Shown one piece after another: positions 8,428 through 20,141 of a stretch of 64,000 nucleotides of DNA; positions within the stretch are counted from its first letter, which is position 1, and every line of letters begins with the position of its first letter. Under the pieces are notes generated by a model, which had not been told where the DNA came from, did no database searches, and saw only the letters and a list, made by a program, of their open reading frames with translations. The DNA is from Acanthochlamys bracteata (taxonomy: Eukaryota > Streptophyta > Magnoliopsida > Pandanales > Velloziaceae), in assembly GCA_019914995.1 (NCBI GenBank), contig CM034143.1:5061501-5125500 (forward strand), given 5' to 3'. A program made the translations under genes and the position numbers.

Positions 8428-8733
8428 ATGAGTGATCCAGTCATTCACGCGTTCGAACACTTAGCTCGCCTCTGCAGAGAACTTTAGTCTTCCGATCTGC
8501 TCCGTTGGTTCTGCTGCTATTGCTGCTCTATCATTCGCCTGCTCCGCCACTTTGTTCCCGCCGCTCCGCTCTGCTTCTTCTTTCCTCGATTTTAATTTTG
8601 CTATTGCTTCTAATCCTTCTTCCGATACTGCTACACAATCTTCGAAAATTCTTCTTCTCTTCTCCTAACGACTTTCAGATCCCGAATCGAAGCTTTCGAA
8701 GCCTGAGGCGGGCCTGAATACCTTAGAAGCTTT
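8428..8733 (+). pseudogene. Unidentified host gene, 5' part, broken by the CACTA element
   Basis: A possible start at 8428 reads MSDPVIHAFEHLARLCREL then a TAG. A neighbouring frame continues with a hydrophobic, Ser/Ala-rich stretch (GSAAIAALSFACSATLFPPL) and later SKPEAGLNTLEAF, which runs straight into the CACTA insertion site. Joining across the element (keeping one TTT) continues without a break as EADSTTTNVVDRLFFMMDYG. So the transposon landed in an exon. I do not recognise the family. Stops in the 5' half suggest decay, or that an intron lies there. Confidence 0.45.
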
Positions 8734-8794
8734 CACTACTAGAAATAATGATATAGAAGGGGAAGGAGAAAGAGCCTTCGACCCCAGCGACTAA

Positions 8795-9350
8795 AAGAAT
8801 CAGTCGGCAAAATCAAGAATTCAGTCGGTATATACATTTACCGACTGAAAAAAGATGGTCGGTAAATCAATTATCGACCAACATACACTATCAGTCAGTA
8901 GTGTACAGTAAATTGCCGACTATAGAGGTAGTCGGTGAATACCGATTTATTAATCCGTCGCTATTCAGGCATTACAGTCGGTACATTTTCGACATACATA
9001 ATAGTTGGTATTTTTCGACTACGACTTTGGACGGTAAATACCGACTACATTAGTGATCGATAATTTGCGACTGCAGTATCGGCCGATAACTACCGACTGT
9101 CTAGTTAGTTGGTAATTATCGACTGCGGCGTCAGTCGGTAACTGCCGACTAACAGACCAGTTGATAATTACCGACTGACGTCCTGGTCGGAAGTACCTTC
9201 ATAAACTATGATTATTACCGACTATCTTTGTAGTCGGTAAATTCTGACTTGTGTTTTCAATCGGGAAAGGCCGACTGCTTTTCTAGTCGGTAACTTTACG
9301 TTTTCAATCGGCTATTCTTTTAGTTGTTTGTTACCGACCTGCTTTTACAG
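8795..9350. repeat. CACTA left subterminal repeat region
   Basis: Many degenerate copies of a roughly 9-11 bp motif, AACCGACTG / CAGTCGGTAA, in both orientations. Examples: near 8820 (CAGTCGGTATA), 8838 (TTACCGACTG), 9134 (CAGTCGGTAACTGCCGACT) and 9221-9240 (ACCGACT...AGTCGGTAA). In En/Spm, subterminal motifs bind the TNPA protein and are needed for transposition. The left copies are more diverged than those on the right. Confidence 0.85.
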
Positions 9351-9796
9351 TTGGCATTGTTTCTGAATTTTCTTCAAAATCGCTGCTGTTATTAAAAATT
9401 TATATATCAACAACATTTTCATTCATATCATTCAATTAAACATAAATAATCTAAATATCACAACATTCAACACAAATAATTTAAAAAAAGTAAGTACTTA
9501 TATTCATTGAAAATGCATAATAAATCAATTACAATTCAGTTTTGACAAAATTCCTGAAAGACAAGAAAGAAAGCAGCTCCATGCCCAAGCTGTGCTATAC
9601 AATATCCACCACAAAGTTAATACGGACATGGAAGGTACCTCCTGCATAGTTCACCTTCTGTGCTATCAACTTTGCCCATATAATCCGTCCATCCATTTCA
9701 GGTATATCTGCAGACAATTAAAGAAAGCAGAGACACATGGAATCATCATGTTCATAATCAGAAAACATCGAACGAAAATCAGATTATAACATAATG
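9351..9796. other. CACTA interior, no gene recognised
   Basis: Lies between the left subterminal repeats and the captured PILS fragment. An open frame from 9592 has no recognisable family resemblance. It may be flanking sequence captured together with the PILS exons. Confidence 0.4.
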
Positions 9797-10150
9797 CAAT
9801 GCAGCTGGGAAGCTTTCTTGTATGGACTTATGGTTACAGCTTGATGAAGAATGCTGGAGCTGAATATGAGAAAATCCGAAACCAAAATGTGAACTCAAGT
9901 GAAGGAAATCACGTCACCTATTTGAATGACGAAGAGAGCACTGTTAATGGCAACGAGGAAAACCAAACTGTAAGAACCTTCAAGAGAAACTCTATTGAAA
10001 TTCTGAAGTAATTTTATAAACCTAACTGAATTATTTCGTATGATTTCAGACTGTTTCTTTACTATCAGGAGTAGATTTCAAGAATGCAAAGAGCTTCTTG
10101 GTGAAGATCAAAGACGCTTTTCTGCAGATAGTGCATGAATTGTTGATGCC
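9797..10150 (+). pseudogene. Captured PILS (PIN-LIKES auxin carrier) gene fragment, two exons
   Basis: Exon one (about 9799-9969) reads MQLGSFLVWTYGYSLMKNAG then a hydrophilic stretch ending NEENQT, followed by GTAAGAAC. Exon two starts after TGATTTCAG at 10050 and reads TVSLLSGVDFKNAKSFLVKI then KDAFLQIVHELLMPA. Joining them keeps the frame. This is the transmembrane segment plus cytosolic loop in the middle of a PILS-family carrier, an endoplasmic reticulum auxin transporter. Everything else of the gene is missing, and the frame ends soon after MPANKSI. It lies inside the CACTA element on the strand opposite to the transposase genes, so it is a captured host fragment. Confidence 0.65.
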
Positions 10151-10339
10151 AGCAAACAAAAGCATATAAGACTTAAAAAATCCTTGTAAGGGAGGATCAA
10201 ACGTTAAGACCATCTTGTCCAGTACTCGCGGACAACTAGCATGTCTAAGCCCTTCGTACTACATAACAAATGGGAATAGCTAAATAGCTCACTGGCACGA
10301 TGGAGTGCTGAGCAACAACAAAATAAAAACACACCTTAC

Positions 10340-10435
10340 CTTGCAAGCTCTGCACCAGAATTTGTGTCAAAGCTATTTATGAGTAGGGCAGTTGCTGTTC
10401 CACTTGGGTAGGTAAGCTTGTAATCGATTATCAAC
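10340..10435 (-). pseudogene. Captured YSL transporter fragment, downstream exon
   Basis: On the minus strand, after TGCTCACAG, the exon reads [20 protein letters not shown] and [13 protein letters not shown] and ends at a GTAAGG donor. [18 protein letters not shown] is a hallmark of Yellow Stripe-Like (oligopeptide transporter superfamily) metal-nicotianamine transporters. It follows the 10967-11139 exon in YSL order, with about 530 bp of intron or inserted sequence between them. No other YSL exon is visible in the element. Confidence 0.75.
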
Positions 10436-10966
10436 CTGTGAGCAATAATCCAAAGTGATAAATTTTAAGTCATTAAGGGGAAAATCAGATTATTCCAAAA
10501 GATAAGTAACAAAATATTGAATCTTCAATTTTTTCGTGGTTGAATGGATACATACATTTGACATGCTAGTAAAGACTCACATGCATGAGTCAGCGACAAA
10601 CTTCATAAGCACTACAACCAATATAAGTATATTCTTCTCTGCTAGCTTGCATCCAAAAAAATAGCTACAATTGTCACCTGATCTAGATCACTATAGTATA
10701 GAAATTTGTGATAACCTTGTGAATATGGCCTTGATGGCCTCCAAAAATTCTCTTATTTCTACTGTTGTTGTATAGGCATTAAGGTGCAGTTCAATTTGTC
10801 AGATAATAACATGTATACTACAAAGGGTTTACCAATCCTTGAATTGCATTTTACTATTGGAGAACCGGCACTAAGTCACAATGTATCAAAACTTGGTAAA
10901 GCATTTGGATTAGTGGATTTTGGCAAAAAAAAATCTGGAATTCCCAAATACTATCATGATCAATAC

Positions 10967-11139
10967 CTTGAGTAGTGCTACAAGGCTAAAAAGTCCAAGA
11001 AAGCTAACAACAAACATAAAGCCAACCATCCATCCCAAAGATGGGTTCTTAACATCTTCAGCCCTGTTGCCAGGAGAATCAACTCCAGTGAGCTCATACG
11101 CCTTCTGTTCCATTGATAACATGTATGATCCAAAACCTT
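10967..11139 (-). pseudogene. Captured YSL transporter fragment, upstream exon
   Basis: Minus strand, bounded by acceptor TAATTTTACAG and donor GTATTGATC. It reads GFGSYMLSMEQKAYELTGVD, then SPGNRAEDVKNPSLGWMVGF and MFVVSFLGLFSLVALLK. This is the well-conserved N-terminal membrane region of YSL transporters (GFG-Y-L-x-M, PGN, DVKNPxLGWM, FLGLFSLV). The final K joins in frame to [11 protein letters not shown] of the next exon. Both splice sites are intact and the exon has no stop, so capture may be fairly recent or at the genomic level with introns. Confidence 0.8.
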
Positions 11140-11771
11140 CTGTAAAATTAGATACTTCTGACTATACAAATTAAGCAGAACTACAAGACAGCTCATTTCT
11201 ATAAGAATGTCAACTGTTCAAGCTAAAGACATTTCATCATATATCATGAACTACAGTTTCCACCAGCAACGAATGTCGGTATGTATGTAAATCACTCTTT
11301 AAAGTTATTGATTTAATTTATGAAGTATATGATCGACTCAAGCTATATGGATGGAAATGTATAGGGACAATGTTAAGCAGCTTAGTAGATTAGGATGGTG
11401 AAACAAAAACCACTATAACCAGTTTGATCATGTTAAGCAGCAACGCTCTAACTATTTCAACGATTTAAAATGTATAAGAGTATCTATAAGAAGTTACGCA
11501 TACTGAATAAGGCCTTCACAAATAAGTGAAATCACAAGATATAGTTAATAAAAAGTTGATAACTCTTAACATAAACCTGATCTAATTATGTGAAATAATT
11601 AAGAATCATTTGAAAGAATAATTTGAAAGAAAAAGGACAACACTAATATAGCTGAAATAAAGTAAGAAAAAATATAAAACTTATTATATAGGTGGTCCAA
11701 TAGCGTTTTTGAGCTTTCCGAACATCTCCATTAGAAATGATACCTTTTCTTCATTTTCACGAAGACGTTGT
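11140..11771. other. CACTA interior between the YSL fragment and the TNPA-like gene
   Basis: AT-rich, no open frame of note. It may include the 3' UTR of the minus-strand Transposase_24-type gene (for example AT-rich sequence around 11640-11770). Nothing else is recognised. Confidence 0.45.
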
Positions 11772-13224
11772 CTAGTCTCTTGCGAGTTGCTTCTCAAGCT
11801 CAGACTGTTGTTTCTCAAGCTCAGATTGTTGTTTCTCAAGTTCAGCTTGTTGTCTTTCATTTTTTTCCTCTAGGGTTACGATATGATCTTTCAAAATCGA
11901 ATTCTCATATGCCTGTGTTGATGAACCAGCAAAGCGGGTGCTAGGCGGCTTAGGTCCACGTCCACGTCCACGAATATATCTACGTGCCTTCCCAAGCACC
12001 GATAGACATATGTCTTCGTCATCGACGTTTTTCCCATCCTCTTGGGATTGATTTGCATTTCTACCATTTGATTCTGCATTTCATTCAAAACAAAATATCT
12101 TAGCAAATTATAAACCTTAACTCTTATAAAAAGATCATAACTTACATAATTTGATTGTGATTCCTTCGATACCCAGCTGTCCTTCTTTTCTTTTGCATTT
12201 GAAATATGTGTCTCTTTATATAAGTCAAGACAGTTGGCATTCTGCAAATTTGTTAAGAGAATCAATTTGCTATTAATTAGAGTCCTATCGTCTTTGTTAT
12301 ATTAAAACCAAAACTATAAAAAAATACCTTCTCCCGTTGTATGGATGCGAAAGTGCGTGAGCCTACTATATGCTTACTATTACTCTTTGCTCGAGCAGCT
12401 TTTGCTTTTTCTCATTTTTTTTTCATATAACCAATGATAAGGATATTTTTCAGCCTCTAAATAAAAAATCTTCAAAAAAAAATTTATCAAAGAAATCTTA
12501 CGATCCATTCTGGCGAATCAAACATGTCACATAGCCAGATCCATTCTTCACGCCGAGCTGCTGTAGAAGTGAAGTCCTTATAAGGATTTGCTCCAGCTCT
12601 GTCTCCACCACCGACACTCTTATAGTAGTCATGGCACTCATAACGTCAATTCTTATATCTCTCGGATTCTGTATTATGTAAACATGCCAAGGTTCCGGGA
12701 TGGGACAAATCTAGCTCAAACTTATCCTGTGATAATAAACAAACTTATTAACAAATTCTAACCCTTAATAATGTATATAAACCAATAATAACAAACTTAC
12801 AGCCATCATGGAATAAATCTCGTTCTTAATAGATTTGTCAATCTTACTCCAACCTTGAATATTCTTTACTGGAGCATTAGTACGAATCAAATATGACATC
12901 TCTCTTGCGAACCAAACAGCATGTTCACCGACTGGTCTCCATATGCCATCGGAAATTTCGATCTTGACTTTCTTTTTATTTCTCAAAATATACATTTCTA
13001 AATCACTACATCTATTGCCCGCACGTGGACGTTGTGTTTGTATATCAACAGACCCTACTTAATTAGAGGACAATTATTAGGTTCACTAATTAGTATATAA
13101 TAACTTAATTAAAAAAAATAATCTTACCACTGCTAGAGCCATTAGGATCTTGAGTCTCCAAATTAGCAATATTCTGGCTTGTTTGTAGCGATAGTTGTCT
13201 TCTACTAGAGGTTACCGGCGCCAT
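11772..13224 (-). CDS. Second CACTA gene: Transposase_24 (Ptta/En/Spm, TNPA-like) protein
   Basis: Starts at 13224 with MAPVTSSRRQLSLQTSQNIA and is split into several exons. Downstream blocks read ISDGIWRPVGEHAVWFAREM (near 12945), NPYKDFTSTAARREEWIWLC (near 12590) and KSNSKHIVGSRTFASIQREK (near 12380). Then follow the RGRGRGPKPPSTRF region and a C-terminal heptad-like coiled coil of repeated EKQQSEL units, ending at 11772. This is the plan of Transposase_24 (PF03004) proteins, counted as TNPA-like proteins that bind the subterminal repeats. An acceptor near 12078 (TTCTGC on plus) keeps the frame into NANQSQEDGK. Exon limits are partly uncertain, but I see no clear stop inside the recognised blocks. 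Confidence 0.7.
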
Positions 13225-13342
13225 AAAGATAAATTAATAAGAAACACCTGTATACAAAGTTCAAAAAATAAAACTTAGAATTAAAAGTGAAATAGATTAA
13301 AATAATTATATAAGATTAAGTTAAAACTCACATGAGATTAAT

Positions 13343-16300
13343 TCAATTGCAATCATCATCACTACAGTTATACTCGTCCGAGTTTTTATTTTCATCTTGA
13401 CCATCACTAATATAAATGCCTTCTTGCTCGTCCAAAACATCAATCACTTTATGATCAAGTTCAATAATTTTATTTAGATGATCTATTTCCATATTATCAT
13501 CTCTGACTCTTACGCTTGAATTTTCCACTTCTTGATAAGCATTATTCTCTACGATTATCACATCATCACTAATATTTGTGTCTTCGTCATCGCAGCCCTC
13601 TCCAAACAACGAGGGATGAAATAAATATCTATGTTGAGATTGTTGTACAACAACCCAATCATTACCTTGCTTCGTATCAGGAACATAAAACACTTGAGTC
13701 ACATTCATAGGAAACACGAATGGATCATTTTGGTACCATTTCTTTGTAATGTTAATACTAGTAAAATCATCATCAATCCTGATGGGTTTTCTGTGATCTA
13801 AGTCAAACCATTCACATTTAAATAGAAAGACTTGATGTCCCCTTGGATATGTCAAAATCAAGACATCATTTAGAACACCATAGAAATTTAAAATTTGATC
13901 TTTACGATATCCTTGCACATAAATTTCACTATTTTGAGTCAACAAACGACGTTCGCGTTTGTATGTGAGAAATTTCACTCCATTGACAATGCATCCAGAA
14001 TACCTAATGGCACGTTTATCTGGACCAAGGGCCAGTGAATATAGATCATCTGCATTCTCTTGCATACTGACATGAGTATGTCTCATCTATAATAAAAATA
14101 TATAAGAAGTAAGTATTTTTAAAAAAATATTGGCCATAATTAAAATCTCAAATTCAATATATATGTATATATTGATATAGTATTTCATACTCGATTTTTA
14201 AACCACGTAGGAAATCCATCTCTTTGCCTTATTTCTAAATTAAGTGGACTATCAACTTTGAGAAGCTCCTCATACTCACTGTAAATATTCCTTTTTGTAA
14301 GTCACTTGCCATCCTATAAGATATTAATGACAAAGGCCAAAAAAAATAGAGAATATTTTTAAATTGTAAATACTTATTTGAGATATGGAACGACTTCATC
14401 GCAGTTATTTAATACAAACCAATGTGCTAAATTGTATTCCTCTTCTATGAGGAGAATTTAGTTTACCTTACCTAATGGTCGAACTTTTGAGAAAATACAG
14501 ATAATGTTGTATCCACCTGTTTCTCTCCATCTTTATGTCGTTCTTATCGATTAAATTTAGTCTCCAACCCTCGCAAGTATCTAGAGCAAAAAATAAGACA
14601 GTCATTTACTGTGTAGGATTCAGCTATGGAGCCTTCTGGATGTGCTCTATTACGAACAGACACCTTAACCGTACCAAGAGTCCTACAAATATAGATGGAA
14701 TAAAAATTTTTATATGATTCCAATAGAAAATTAAATGAGAAATTTGAGATTCCCATAATAAAATTCACCTCTCTATAGGATACATTCATCTGTAATGAAC
14801 CGGACCTTCCTTGATAGCTTCATCCGGCAAGTGTACAACTAAATGTATCATGATATGAAAAAATACCGGAGGAAATATCATCTCAAGCTTGCAAAGAATT
14901 AACCACAATGTTATGCTATAATTCTCTCAATCCATCCAATTTTAAAGTCTTTGCACATAACTCTCTGAAAAACTTCCAAGTTCACTATTACTTCTAACAT
15001 TTTTTTTTGGAGATACCTATGTAAACCAATAGGTAGTAAGCGCTGCAAAATCACATGATTATCATGACTCTTCAACCCCGAGATTCTACCGTCCACTGTA
15101 TTTACACATCTCGAAATATTTGCAGCATATCCATCAGAAAATCTTACAGACTTAAAAAATTCACAAAATTTCCTTTTTTTCTGAGATGATAATGTGTACG
15201 CCGTAATCGATTTCTCCCACTTATTGGTATCCAATTTCTTTGTATGCAGATCACGTATACCTAGATCTTCTAGGTCCTAACGTGCCTTTAGAGTATCCTT
15301 CGTTTTCTTATCTATATTCATCAAAGTTCCGAAGATGTTATCACAAATATTTTTCTCGATATGCATGATATCAAGATTGTGACGATTTACGAGATCCTTC
15401 CAATATGGTAGTTCAAAAAAAATACTTTTTTGGTCCAATTAAGCTCCTCGAATGTGCGCTTCCTCTTCTTACCACTTGTAGGTTTTCCAAACTTCACGTC
15501 TTTAACAATATCCATATGTTCTAACAATTCATCAATTGATAATATAGGAGGTGGTGCTGCTGCTTCTTGCTTTCCATTAAATTTTTTACTCCTTCTTTAC
15601 GGATGGTTGCTCAGTAAATAGCGACGATGGCCGAGATAACTAATTTTGTCTCTAAGTTTGACAGAATATGTATATTTGTTGCATACGAGACATGCCAAGT
15701 AGCCTTTTGTGCTCCATCTAGATAAACCTCCATATGCAGAAAAATCATTTACGGTCTATATAACAGCTGCATGCAATTGAAATATAGTATTGGAACTCCG
15801 TTCTCCCACAGCTCCTTCAACTCTTCAATTAGTGGCTGAAGATATACATCAATGTTTCTACCAGGTGATTTTTTTCCTGAAATTAAAAGTGTCATAATAA
15901 AGTATGGCTTTTTCATGCACATCCATGGAGGTAAATTGTACGGCATTAAAATAATAGGCAGCAGCTATATGCATTGCTCATATCTCCAAATGGATTGAAT
16001 CCATCAGTCGCCAAGCCAAGTCTTAAGTTTCGAGCATCACTAGCAAACCATGGAAACTTCAAATCAAAATCCTTCCAAGTCTCAGCATCTGCAGGATGTC
16101 TCAAAATCTTAGAGTTATCTACACGTTTCTCCTTATGCCATCTCATATCCAAGGCCGTCTTTCTTGACATGTAAAATTGTCGCAGTTTAGGTACTAATGA
16201 AAAATGACGAAGCACTTTCTTGGAAACCTTCTTACTGGTGCCACCATTAACCTTCCACCTTGATGTATTGCATTCTGGGCACTTCTCCTCGTTTACCAAC

Positions 16301-17025
16301 TCCTTTCTAAAAAGAACGCAATCATTCTCGCATGCAACAATAGGTTCCCATCCCAAACCTAAATCCTTTAGAATCTTTCTACATTGATAGTAAGACGAAA
16401 GAAGTAAATGCCCTTTCGGAAATGCATCAATCAAAAGATCAAGCAGCATATTAAAACCTTTGTTGCTCCAACGATTAAGCACCTTAACATGCAGCAATTT
16501 TATGAGGAATGATAATTTTGAGATTGTACATCCCTCGTACAATGGATTCTCGACATCTTCAAACAATTTATCATATCTATTGATATCATCTGCTGCAACT
16601 GAAGACCCTTCACCAACAAGGAGCTGACGTGTGTCGCCCTCCGCAGCTACTTGAGGGATCTCTAAATCCACAACACCACCCCTACGTATATCCTCCAAAA
16701 TTTTAAATATTTCATCATATTCTTCGTCTTCAACAGGTCTCACTGGAGTCTCATCTCTACGAACACCAACACTTTGATTACCTTGATGAGTGACTTCTCC
16801 ATGTAAGTTCCATCTCGTGTAAGACGCCATAAATCCATTCACAAGTAAATGCATGTATACCACATCGAGCATGTTTGAGTATCTATTCAAACAACGTCGA
16901 CATGGATAATACATCTCGCTAACATTCTACAAATGATCTTTAGCAAATTGCATAAAGGAGCGAACTCCATTTGTATACTTCTCCGACAACTTATCAGGAT
17001 TATATATCCAACTCTTATCCATCAT
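13343..17025 (-). pseudogene. CACTA TNP2-type transposase, damaged
   Basis: Starts at 17025 (MMDKSWIYNPDKLSEKYTNG). Blocks in order: Transpos_assoc (PF13963; YYPCRRCLNRYS, HLLVNGF), tnp2 (PF02992; CPECNTSRWK, LRLGLATDGFNPFGDMSNAY, MPYNLPPWMCM, FFELPYWKDLVNRHNLDIMH), DUF4218 (RNRAHPEGSIAESY, LIFCSRYLRGLETKFNR near 14640-14560) and DUF4216 (GCIVNGVKF, FYVPDTKQGNDW, 14086-13343). Lesions: an in-frame TAG after FAKDHL near 16930; loss of one base near 15958, where SCW-P should read on into MPYNLPP; a further shift near 15770; and stops later on. Introns explain some gaps but not these. The C-terminal 247-codon DUF4216 block is still open. Confidence 0.85.
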
Positions 17026-17169
17026 ATTTCATAATGAGGTACATTAGCCGGAGTAGAATATACGTACATTATTACATTCATTTGAAATATATTATTTACT
17101 CTAAAAATTAATACTCAATATATATATATAAATTTTCTTGTAGTTATCAATTGTATTCTAACATATTTC
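17026..17169. other. Short upstream segment of the transposase gene
   Basis: AT-rich sequence just upstream of the transposase start, with a (TA)n stretch near 17120. It probably holds the 5' UTR or promoter of the TNP2 gene. No motif can be assigned with confidence. Confidence 0.35.
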
Positions 17170-18660
17170 AAGAGCAACACATCCTACAGCAGGCTGTTCC
17201 AAAAATATATGAGTTTCCTACAGCAGCCAATAGAGTTTTCCAAAAATATATGAGTTCCGTACAGCAGGGAGAGATGGAGAGTTTCCTACAGTAAGGTGGA
17301 CAGCAGGGGGGCAAGGGGGTACAACATCTAAGTGTATTCTCAAAAATATATGAAAATATTCCTACAGCAGCTAAGAGTTTTCTGCATAAGGGGGTACATG
17401 CACTTGAGTTTTTTTTGGAAGGGGAGGGGAAGAGCTTCCTACAGCAGCCAAGAGAGTTTTCTTCCTACAGCAGGGGGAGAGCTTCCTACAGCAGGGGGAG
17501 AGGGAGAGTTTCCTACAACAAGGTGGACAGCAGGGGGGATAGTAAGGGGGGACAGCAAGGAGGAGAGCAAAGGGGTGCAGCATCTAAGAGTATTCTAAAA
17601 AATATTTGAAAATATTCCTACAGCATCTAAGAGTTTTCTGCAGCAGGGGAGACAGCATGCACTTGAGTTTTTTCTGGAAGGGGAAGAGGAAGAGCTTCCT
17701 ACAGCAGCCAAGAGAGTTTTCTTCCTACAGCAGGGGGAGAGGAAGAGTTTCCTACAACAAGTGGACAGCAGGGGGGATAGCAAGGGGGGACAGCAAGGGA
17801 GAGAGCAAGGGGGTGCAGCATCTAAGAGTATTCTAAAAAATATTTGAAAATATTCCTACAGCATCTAAGAGTTTTCTGCAGCAGGGGGGACAGCATACAC
17901 TTGAGTTTTTTCTGGAAGGGGAAGAGGAAGAGCTTCCTACAGCAGCCAAGAGAGCTTTCTTCCTACAGCAGGGGGAGAGGAAGAGTTTCCTACAGCAGCC
18001 AAGAGAGTTTTCTTCCTACAGCAGGGGGAGAGGAAGAGTTTCCTACAGCAAGGTGGACAGCAGGGGGATAGCAAGGGGGGACAGCATGCACTTGAGTTTT
18101 TTTTGGAAGGGGAGGGGGAAGAGCTTCCTACAGCAGCCAAGAGAGTTTTCTTCCTACAGCAGGGGGGAGCTTCCTACAGCAGTCGGTAGAGTTTTCTTCC
18201 TTAAGGGGGTTTCTTGCAGCAGGAGGGAGAGCTTCATACAGCACGGGGAGTTTCCTATAGCAAGGTCTATAGAAACTAAATGCATGCCACAAGATAAATG
18301 CAATGTCAAAAGGATGGGCTAGCATGTAATAACTACAGAATTGAGATGAGATGACATACAATATTGTTTCAGCTACAATAACTAATAAGTTCATAGGATG
18401 ATTACTGACCATAGTTTTTCAGATTTTATTAGAGCAGTTGATGATGTATATTTTTCTGATTTCATCACATAGAAGAATATTTTGAAGCATCCTACAGTAA
18501 GGGGAGAGTTTCCTACAGCAAGGGGGGAGGCTTCCTACAGAGAGAGTTTTCTACAGCATCTAAGAGTATTCTCAAAAGTATATGAAATATTCCTACAGCA
18601 TCTAAGAGTTTTCTACGGCAGGGGGGAGCTTCCTACAGCATGTAAGAGTATTCTCAAAAG
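17170..18660. repeat. GC-skewed tandem array in the CACTA element (~240-bp period)
   Basis: Built of many copies of CTTCCTACAGCAG with spacers such as CCAAGAGAGTTTT and GGGGGAGAGGAAGAG. A higher-order unit of about 240 bp recurs with starts near 17321, 17575 and 17814, each beginning with CATCTAAGAGTATTCT and including CACTTGAGTTTTTTCTGG. The array decays after 18250, is interrupted by unique sequence at 18260-18480, and resumes at 18487-18660. The open frames in it are products of the repeat and should not be taken as genes. It lies between the transposase start and the right subterminal repeats, the promoter side of the element. Confidence 0.85.
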
Positions 18661-19600
18661 AAGAGATGAAAACATTGCTTCAATCGAGAAAATCATTGTA
18701 AACAATATGAAAATAAGTATTGCTTCAAACAAAAATAAAATTGTAGGACTAGACTCAGGTGTCCTACCAATAAACGTCATTCTTTTCTACTTCCTAAAGA
18801 AGACAGAAGACTATATGAAAAATATCTAACACATGTATATGGTAAAAATTGAAATAAAAGCTCTACAAAACTGTACCTGTGAGCAATGCACTCTGCTGCA
18901 ATTTAATGCAATCTTTCAAATCTGGACCTTCTCTGCTTCCTGTCCCTTCGGAAAACTTTCAAAAATAATTTTCAGAAAAATAATTATAGGACAGAACTAA
19001 AGGAATCTAGCTGACAAATGAAATCAGAAAGAAAATAATCATACTTGAAACTTATAAAAAATAACAGCTGTGAAAATTGAATACCAATGAAATACGTACG
19101 AAATATAAAAATGGCTTCAAGCAATACCTTTTGAGGCAATTAATACATAAAAATAACTCATCCAACTGACTAAATAACAGATATCTTAATAGTTAGTACA
19201 AAAGCATCAGCTTCATATATTTCATTACCAGATAAAGCTCCTGTTTATATATCCAATGTCTTTGTCAACTACGCTCGAAGTTAGTGACCCTTTTTGTTTC
19301 TAAGAAATTGGCACTGGCAGTTTCAATTTCCATCCATAACGCAAAGATGCTTACCTATTTCCGGCGAGATGACAGCGACGGTTGTGCAATTTTCGGCGAG
19401 ACAGCGGCTCCAACAAAATCCACCGTGATGGAGCTCAATACGGCGAGAGGAGCCCGAATTAGAACGGATAGCGTCGGATGGCAGCAATTCCGGTGAGATG
19501 GAGCTGAATTTCACCCGCAGACGACCGGTAAGAGAAGACGAGCAATCACCGGCAAAAATCTAGGTTTTTAGAGTTGGGAGAAAATGATGGGTAGCTGGTT
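18661..19600. other. CACTA interior, promoter side, no gene recognised
   Basis: Unique AT-rich sequence followed by a more GC-rich patch at about 19340-19520 (CCGGCGAGATGACAGCG and similar). It has open frames on both strands but no family resemblance. The GC-rich patch near the right end could be the untranslated leader of the transposase transcript. This is an inference from position only. Confidence 0.35.
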
Positions 19601-19614
19601 CGAGTCGGATTAAT

Positions 19615-20118
19615 TTAGACAAATTACCGACTGAATCAGCAAAGCAGTCGGTAACATATACCAAAATACCAACCGACACGAAACGCAGTCGGTAATATAC
19701 CTCCACATTACCGACTAAAATAATTTCCAGTCGGTAATATATATCCACTATCGATTAGAAAAGTATTCAGTCGGAAACTTACAAACTCATATATACCGAC
19801 TGAAAGAGTCTATAGTCGGTAATATAAATCAATTACCGACTAGTAAGGTACACAGTCGGAAACTTGCAAACTAATTACCGACTGAATTAGGTATCAGTCG
19901 GTAATATATCCACTACCGACTGATATAGTATGCCGTCGGTAATATATATACCATATTCCGACTAACTCGTCTAGCAATCGGTAATTTGTTTAAATTGCCG
20001 ACTAATAGAGTAAGCAGTCGGTAAGCTTATAGAAAATACCGACTGACTAGTGTGCCTCGTCGGTAATTGACGAATTTACCGACTGCACTTGGTTGGTCGG
20101 TAAATTATCAGTCGGTAA
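19615..20118. repeat. CACTA right subterminal repeats, alternating orientation
   Basis: Regular alternation of TACCGACT and AGTCGGTAAT about every 20-25 bases, so neighbouring copies form palindromic pairs. Examples: ACCGACTGAATC...CAGTCGGTAAC at 19626-19653, ACCGACTGAAAG...TAGTCGGTAAT near 19795-19822, ACCGACTGAATT...CAGTCGGTAAT near 19877-19906. About ten pairs are visible. These are much better preserved than the left array. Confidence 0.9.
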
Positions 20119-20141
20119 TGCTAGTTATTGTAGTAGTGTTT

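Follow-up and report, generated by a model that had tools for sequence, protein, structure and literature searches.

A transposase-bearing CACTA element of Acanthochlamys bracteata contains nested fragments of three host genes

CACTA transposons are already known to transduplicate host genes, and several elements resemble the one presented here. In soybean, Tgm-Express1 encloses exon-intron pieces of several unrelated host genes between CACTA ends (PMC1947982), and in the grapevine element Cactavine-5, a piece of a PPR gene lies downstream of the CACTA transposase frame (PMC2528002). Captured gene fragments are found outside the coding part of Chenopodium CACTA elements, whose authors note capture-prone regions (PMC8978399), and Pack-CACTA elements, of the Pack-TYPE kind, hold transduplicated coding DNA between CACTA ends (PMC8903248). 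In the maize hAT element Ds2, foreign filler DNA that includes an exon-intron piece replaces internal sequence (PMC3260210).

We describe a CACTA element from Acanthochlamys bracteata in which the layers of capture are unusually clear. It is 11.4 kb long and has transposase-type genes, whereas Tgm-Express1 measures 5.7 kb and carries five gene fragments (PMC1947982); three donors are nested in it, whereas Cactavine-5 has one donor (PMC2528002); and its captures lie on the 3' side of a TNPA-like gene, unlike those of Chenopodium, which lie 5' of ORF1 (PMC8978399). Pack-TYPE elements are by definition non-autonomous and devoid of transposase (PMC8903248), whereas a Pfam search detected transposase-type domains in our element, which is thus not a Pack-CACTA. 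Nested order is not mentioned in the accessible parts of the reports on Tgm-Express1 (PMC1947982) and on Ds2 (PMC3260210), the latter belonging to a different superfamily. A limited search of the open-access literature yielded no description of nested or successive capture, and an open-access literature search for CACTA elements with YSL or PILS sequences yielded nothing relevant.

The window is the 64,000-nucleotide stretch C18:5061501-5125500, and the genome searched was the same 195.5-Mb assembly. Within the window, the element occupies positions 8734 to 20138, with the ends CACTACTAGAAATAATG and CACTACTACAATAAC (the right end read in reverse complement) and a TTT target site duplication (8731 to 8733 and 20139 to 20141). 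Subterminal repeats lie at 8785 to 9545 on the left (GTCGGTAAT/ATTACCGAC type) and, together with the end, at 19620 to 20138 on the right, the GTCGGTAAT type being present at both ends. On the minus strand, we found a gene region common to other copies (11629 to 13240), called TNPA-like from its position, a DUF4216 frame of the transposase gene (13343 to 14086; PF13952, 2.7e-22 at 13346 to 14086), and a TNP2-type transposase (15946 to 16926) with, at 15949 to 16926, Transpos_assoc (PF13963, 9.3e-11) and the start of Transposase_21 (PF02992, 2.7e-21). The longest transposase frame has 326 aa, and the downstream transposase frames, read without mending, are split by introns or damage. The TNPA-like stretch 12768 to 13058 gave no match in a Pfam search, and the last TNPA-like frame stops at 11684 to 11686, 60 bp from the captured block described below. 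The sequence GTAAG at the TNPA end is kept in 13 of 14 other aligned copies; because it overlaps a conserved double stop, it is undiagnostic as a splice donor. In genome searches, the left end yielded 67 matches and the TNPA-like part 43, single copies contributing several of them; 40 candidates were scored for each. CACTA ends, a 3-bp duplication, a TNP2-type transposase, subterminal repeats, and multiple copies together place the element in the CACTA (En/Spm) superfamily, in agreement with the earlier note on this DNA. Upstream of the transposase gene, positions 17180 to 18650 consist of G+A-rich tandem repeats, one unit being about 238 bp long (CTTCCTACAGCAGGGGGAGAG), and related repeats are found in other copies as well as elsewhere in the genome.

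BLAST and local comparison revealed a captured block (9552 to 11623), flanked by the left subterminal repeats and, on its other side, by the 3' side of the TNPA-like gene, and composed of pieces of three host genes with their introns in the nested order A1-P1-Y-P2-A2. Six nucleotides of filler (9546 to 9551), also present in a relative on C2 (L010), precede A1, a minus-strand PDI-like (thioredoxin-domain) fragment with exon and intron (9552 to 9740; nearest parental locus L019, C4:3886423-3886627). About 7 nt of filler separate A1 from P1, a plus-strand PILS fragment of two exon parts with introns (9748 to 10156; nearest parental locus L004, C2:3403k). P1 overlaps by 4 nt (3 nt with the present L004 base) with Y, a minus-strand YSL fragment of two exons with introns (10153 to 11262; nearest relative L002, C4:10036009-10036874). 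Y in turn overlaps by 5 nt with the plus-strand P2 (11258 to 11373), which derives from the same parent as P1, starting there 641 bp past the P1 end and keeping its direction, and the 4-nt filler TAAG (11374 to 11377) leads to the minus-strand A2 (11378 to 11623), which starts 1.2 kb beyond A1 in L019. The outer and the inner pair are each collinear with a single parent, these two intervals being the missing middles. Since P2 lies beyond the YSL piece, YSL is nested in PILS and not placed beside it, as the earlier note had supposed; that note had also confined the captured region to 9797 to 11139 and counted two genes, whereas PDI-like sequence forms both outer sides as a third. Its proposal of a capture at the DNA level in opposite orientations agrees with the introns kept in both the PILS and the YSL stretches. 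With exon-intron DNA of host genes inside it and parental loci elsewhere, the element is a transduplicating CACTA, the locus found for YSL being only a relative of the donor.

Microhomology overlaps and short fillers are a typical trace of end joining after interrupted copying, and we infer that the junctions of the block were formed in this manner. Another model, ascribed to Catoni et al. 2019 (PMC13317346), starts from two neighboring CACTA copies whose end deletions complement each other; the chromosomal DNA enclosed by them then moves with them as one element. It would account for one continuous host stretch between left and right element parts, but the DNA enclosed here has its sources in three unlinked loci, on C2 and C4, shows no contiguous flank, and has lost the donor middles, which makes such an origin highly improbable. 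Two further candidates were rejected. Positions 9552 to 9740 are not native element sequence, as C4:3886k matches them at 89% including gaps and they are absent from 33 other stretches of the same region; a TE insertion into this region was rejected by eye only, the donors being low-copy and no target duplication being seen at the joins.

Same-genome BLAST of positions 9797 to 11139 gave eight places, all of them scored: the element itself, a PILS gene on C2 (97%, with 9798 to 10156), a PILS paralog on C1 (76%), two YSL loci on C4 (90% and 84%, with 10153 to 11139), a 158-bp YSL piece on C17 (98%) and on C20 (97%), and a 70-bp match on C1. The matches of the captured stretches to PILS and YSL had E values from 0 to 1.6e-167, and both gene assignments of the earlier note were borne out. 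A third donor locus, on C4, was found for 9552 to 9740 by a genome search with the left end. Single PDI-like exon pieces gave no match in the Pfam search; the two exon peptides, once joined, matched Thioredoxin (PF00085, 3.6e-6) and TXNDC5, DNAJC10, and PDI chains in the PDB (best 1.5e-17). The captured PDI-like exon has lost 1 bp relative to L019. A 75-bp part of A2 (11478 to 11552) is absent from L019, and its interpretation as a further insert was ruled out by a PDI-like paralog on C6 (L069), which matches 11379 to 11537 at 79%.

The nearest PILS locus, L004 (C2:3401524-3404883), is itself damaged. Polarization of the P1 substitutions with the paralog L005 assigned eight to the element side and two to the parent side, with two ambiguous; one of the two parent-side changes destroys a splice acceptor of L004 (AG to TG at 10048), and a 1-bp insertion at 9829 shifts its exon frame (+1). 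At both sites, the captured copy and L005 have the intact state. The captured copy has lost 13 bp before the PILS exon, and Mem_trans (PF03547) matches its exon at 4.9e-4, below Pfam's cut-off, versus 3.4e-9 for a parent exon.

The YSL piece differs at 75/892 positions from L002 (C4:10034509-10038374) and at 175/1082 from L003, which lies about 6 kb from L002. We found no donor nearer than L002 in the assembly, so that only a relative of the donor was located. About 200 bp are missing from L002, among them most of the YSL exon that is present in the element; L003 retains this exon stretch. The OPT domain (PF03169) matches exon 1 of L002 at 2.7e-15, whereas the captured YSL exon, taken by itself, did not match OPT in the Pfam search. 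Compared with L002 and L003, the captured second exon (about 10341 to 10436) carries a 2-bp deletion just after the acceptor, which causes a frameshift; the open frames claimed by the earlier note are confirmed in one YSL exon and in the first of the PILS exon parts, but not in the other YSL exon.

A 158-bp part of the YSL piece (10563 to 10720) is also present within two other CACTA copies, L006 (C17:4823924-4827081) and L007 (C20:5675237-5678394), where it is located elsewhere, upstream of the transposase at a place corresponding to around 17123 in this element, next to CCTACAGCAAGGGG-type repeats. This part differs from L006 at 3/158 positions, from L007 at 5/158, and from L002 at 7/156, and the three elements share one substitution and a 1-bp loss that are absent from L002 and L003. 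Apart from these 158 bp, which are nearer to the copies in L006 and L007 than to L002, not significantly so (p = 0.22 for L006), the captured stretches match low-copy host loci, as the proposal of the earlier note required. Over a transposase stretch, this element and L006 differ at 74/1083 positions, versus 3/158 in the YSL piece (Fisher p = 0.013), which argues that the YSL pieces were probably acquired after the split of the backbones, either from an L002-related copy not found in the assembly or by passage between elements.

Sense or antisense/small RNA produced from the captured pieces might regulate the parent genes. The high identity to the PILS parent (97 to 99% outside gaps) and the antisense orientation of PILS to the transposase-side reading direction would suit such a role, which has been discussed likewise for a grapevine CACTA with an antisense PPR piece (PMC2528002). 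However, since the transposase-type frames are on the minus strand, putative read-through would be antisense only for PILS and sense for YSL and PDI-like, which weakens the antisense RNA against YSL suggested by the earlier note; in addition, identity to the nearest YSL relative reaches only about 90%, and the nearest PILS locus bears the lesions described above. We regard a regulatory role as improbable, and the fragments are most likely passengers without protein function.

We then looked at the slot in other CACTA copies, the slot being the region enclosed by the left subterminal repeats and the 3' end of the TNPA-like gene. In the set of loci compared, similarity to this element ceases at 9541 to 9545 in those copies that include the left end, except in L010, where it extends to 9705 in A1; on the TNPA side, the match starts at about 11629 in nearer copies and at 11649 to 11679 in more distant ones. 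We cut 33 other slot stretches by hand, from at most 30 copies, some being two halves of one copy and the one-sided flanks possibly extending outside the slot. None of the 33 shares the captured block, and the median depth of coverage by other stretches was at least 4 in 22 of them and 0 to 1 in the remaining 11. As 22 stretches resemble each other and none shares the block, we conclude that a family-specific slot stretch was replaced in this element. In copies in which its two sides were placeable, the native slot measures about 0.4 to 2.2 kb. The ends of the element recur in other CACTA copies around different filler, a point on which the earlier note had made its proposal depend.

Three of the 11 stretches with a depth of 0 to 1 (on C17, C12, and C18) were searched against the genome. 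In the C17 relative, the slot is filled from four donor loci at 91 to 98% identity, with overlaps of 1, 5, and 5 nt: a kinase-like locus (98%; L050, named from a Pfam match at 4.1e-5), a NAC-alpha locus (91%), and, at 97% each, an aconitase locus and one without a name. NAC-alpha and aconitase were identified from exons that lie outside or beside the captured parts. The NAC-alpha, aconitase, and unnamed pieces also occur as one block in the copies L051 (C16) and L052 (C9), between two left-subterminal matches and not directly adjoining the TNPA part; these two copies are 98.6% identical over 2 kb of shared captured DNA, which is compatible with transposition or segmental duplication. The C12 relative is un-nested, with two collinear pieces of one C6 region (98%) separated by 12 nt, 3.3 kb of the donor being missing between them. 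Matches of the C18 slot are partly local and partly on C7 and C1. As side observations, the NAC-alpha piece in the captured DNA of L051 and L052 has a PDB match at 5.3e-22, a piece in L051 is apparently from a sucrose phosphate synthase gene, and a donor on C6 is of UBX/UBA type, the last two names being our own reading with little or no database support.

We propose that the block A1-P1-Y-P2-A2 probably results from interrupted gap repair that copied ectopic donors, repeatedly and within earlier captures; abortive gap repair is reportedly due to Rubin and Levy. A transposase-bearing CACTA element would have had its slot DNA replaced by host DNA: one or both broken ends would have used an ectopic gene as template, and microhomology or short filler would have linked the resulting copies, so that the donor's middle was omitted. 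The PDI-like gene would have been the first donor, a later break within the PDI-like block would have been repaired from the PILS gene, and a still later break from the YSL gene. Alternatively, a single complex repair event with template switching of the replication type, in which one copying strand switched from A to P and Y and then back to P and A, would have given pieces of one age. The microhomology and short fillers at the junctions suit this alternative too, and the divergences of A from L019 (13/350) and of PILS from L004 (13/514) do not differ significantly (p = 0.32). A second copy of the full A-P-Y-P-A array was not found by same-genome BLAST of the whole interval, P2, and A2, nor was an A-P copy without Y; because the matches of P2 and A2 are confined to this element itself, the loci of PILS and of the PDI-like gene, and the PDI-like paralog, the steps of nested capture are not seen, as a single event would also have it.

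Against a single event stands L010, which has its own CACTA end and a flank different from that of this element, and already contains A1 with the same first junction and two shared gaps (12 and 3 nt). Judged by the transposase stretch (62/1449 differences), its split from this element seems to predate the PILS capture (13/514), a weakly supported difference (p = 0.08); the left subterminal stretch, with 72 mismatches in 789 aligned columns (56 gapped), diverges from L010 more than the transposase stretch does, which indicates an uneven clock. L010 is cut inside A1 at 9705, and a former presence of PILS in it is therefore unreadable. The un-nested two-piece capture in the C12 relative also speaks against a single event, which we judge unlikely. 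For repeated gap repair, the A1 shared with L010 and the divergence data suggest, short of proof, the order PDI-like, then PILS, then YSL, and the probably young age of the YSL piece relative to the backbone split fits YSL as the last layer. The distance of YSL to L002 (75/892) exceeds that of PILS to its parent (13/514; p = 6e-6) and contradicts this position of YSL unless YSL came from a different copy, a possibility for which 158 bp of sequence speak.

The way in which cut-and-paste transposons acquire host genes remains under debate, and the nested, un-nested, and multi-donor captures in one slot form a natural series that could separate gap repair from hybrid-element and single-event models. 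Tentatively, the slot may be a recurrent break-and-capture site and the A-P-Y-P-A block a time-ordered record in which each break fell within the prior capture, its layers preserving a YSL copy lost from the host and a PILS exon pair disabled in the parent. The nested order and the repeatedly replaced slot deserve specialist attention, and the captured copies keep host-gene states that have since been lost at the nearest parental loci.
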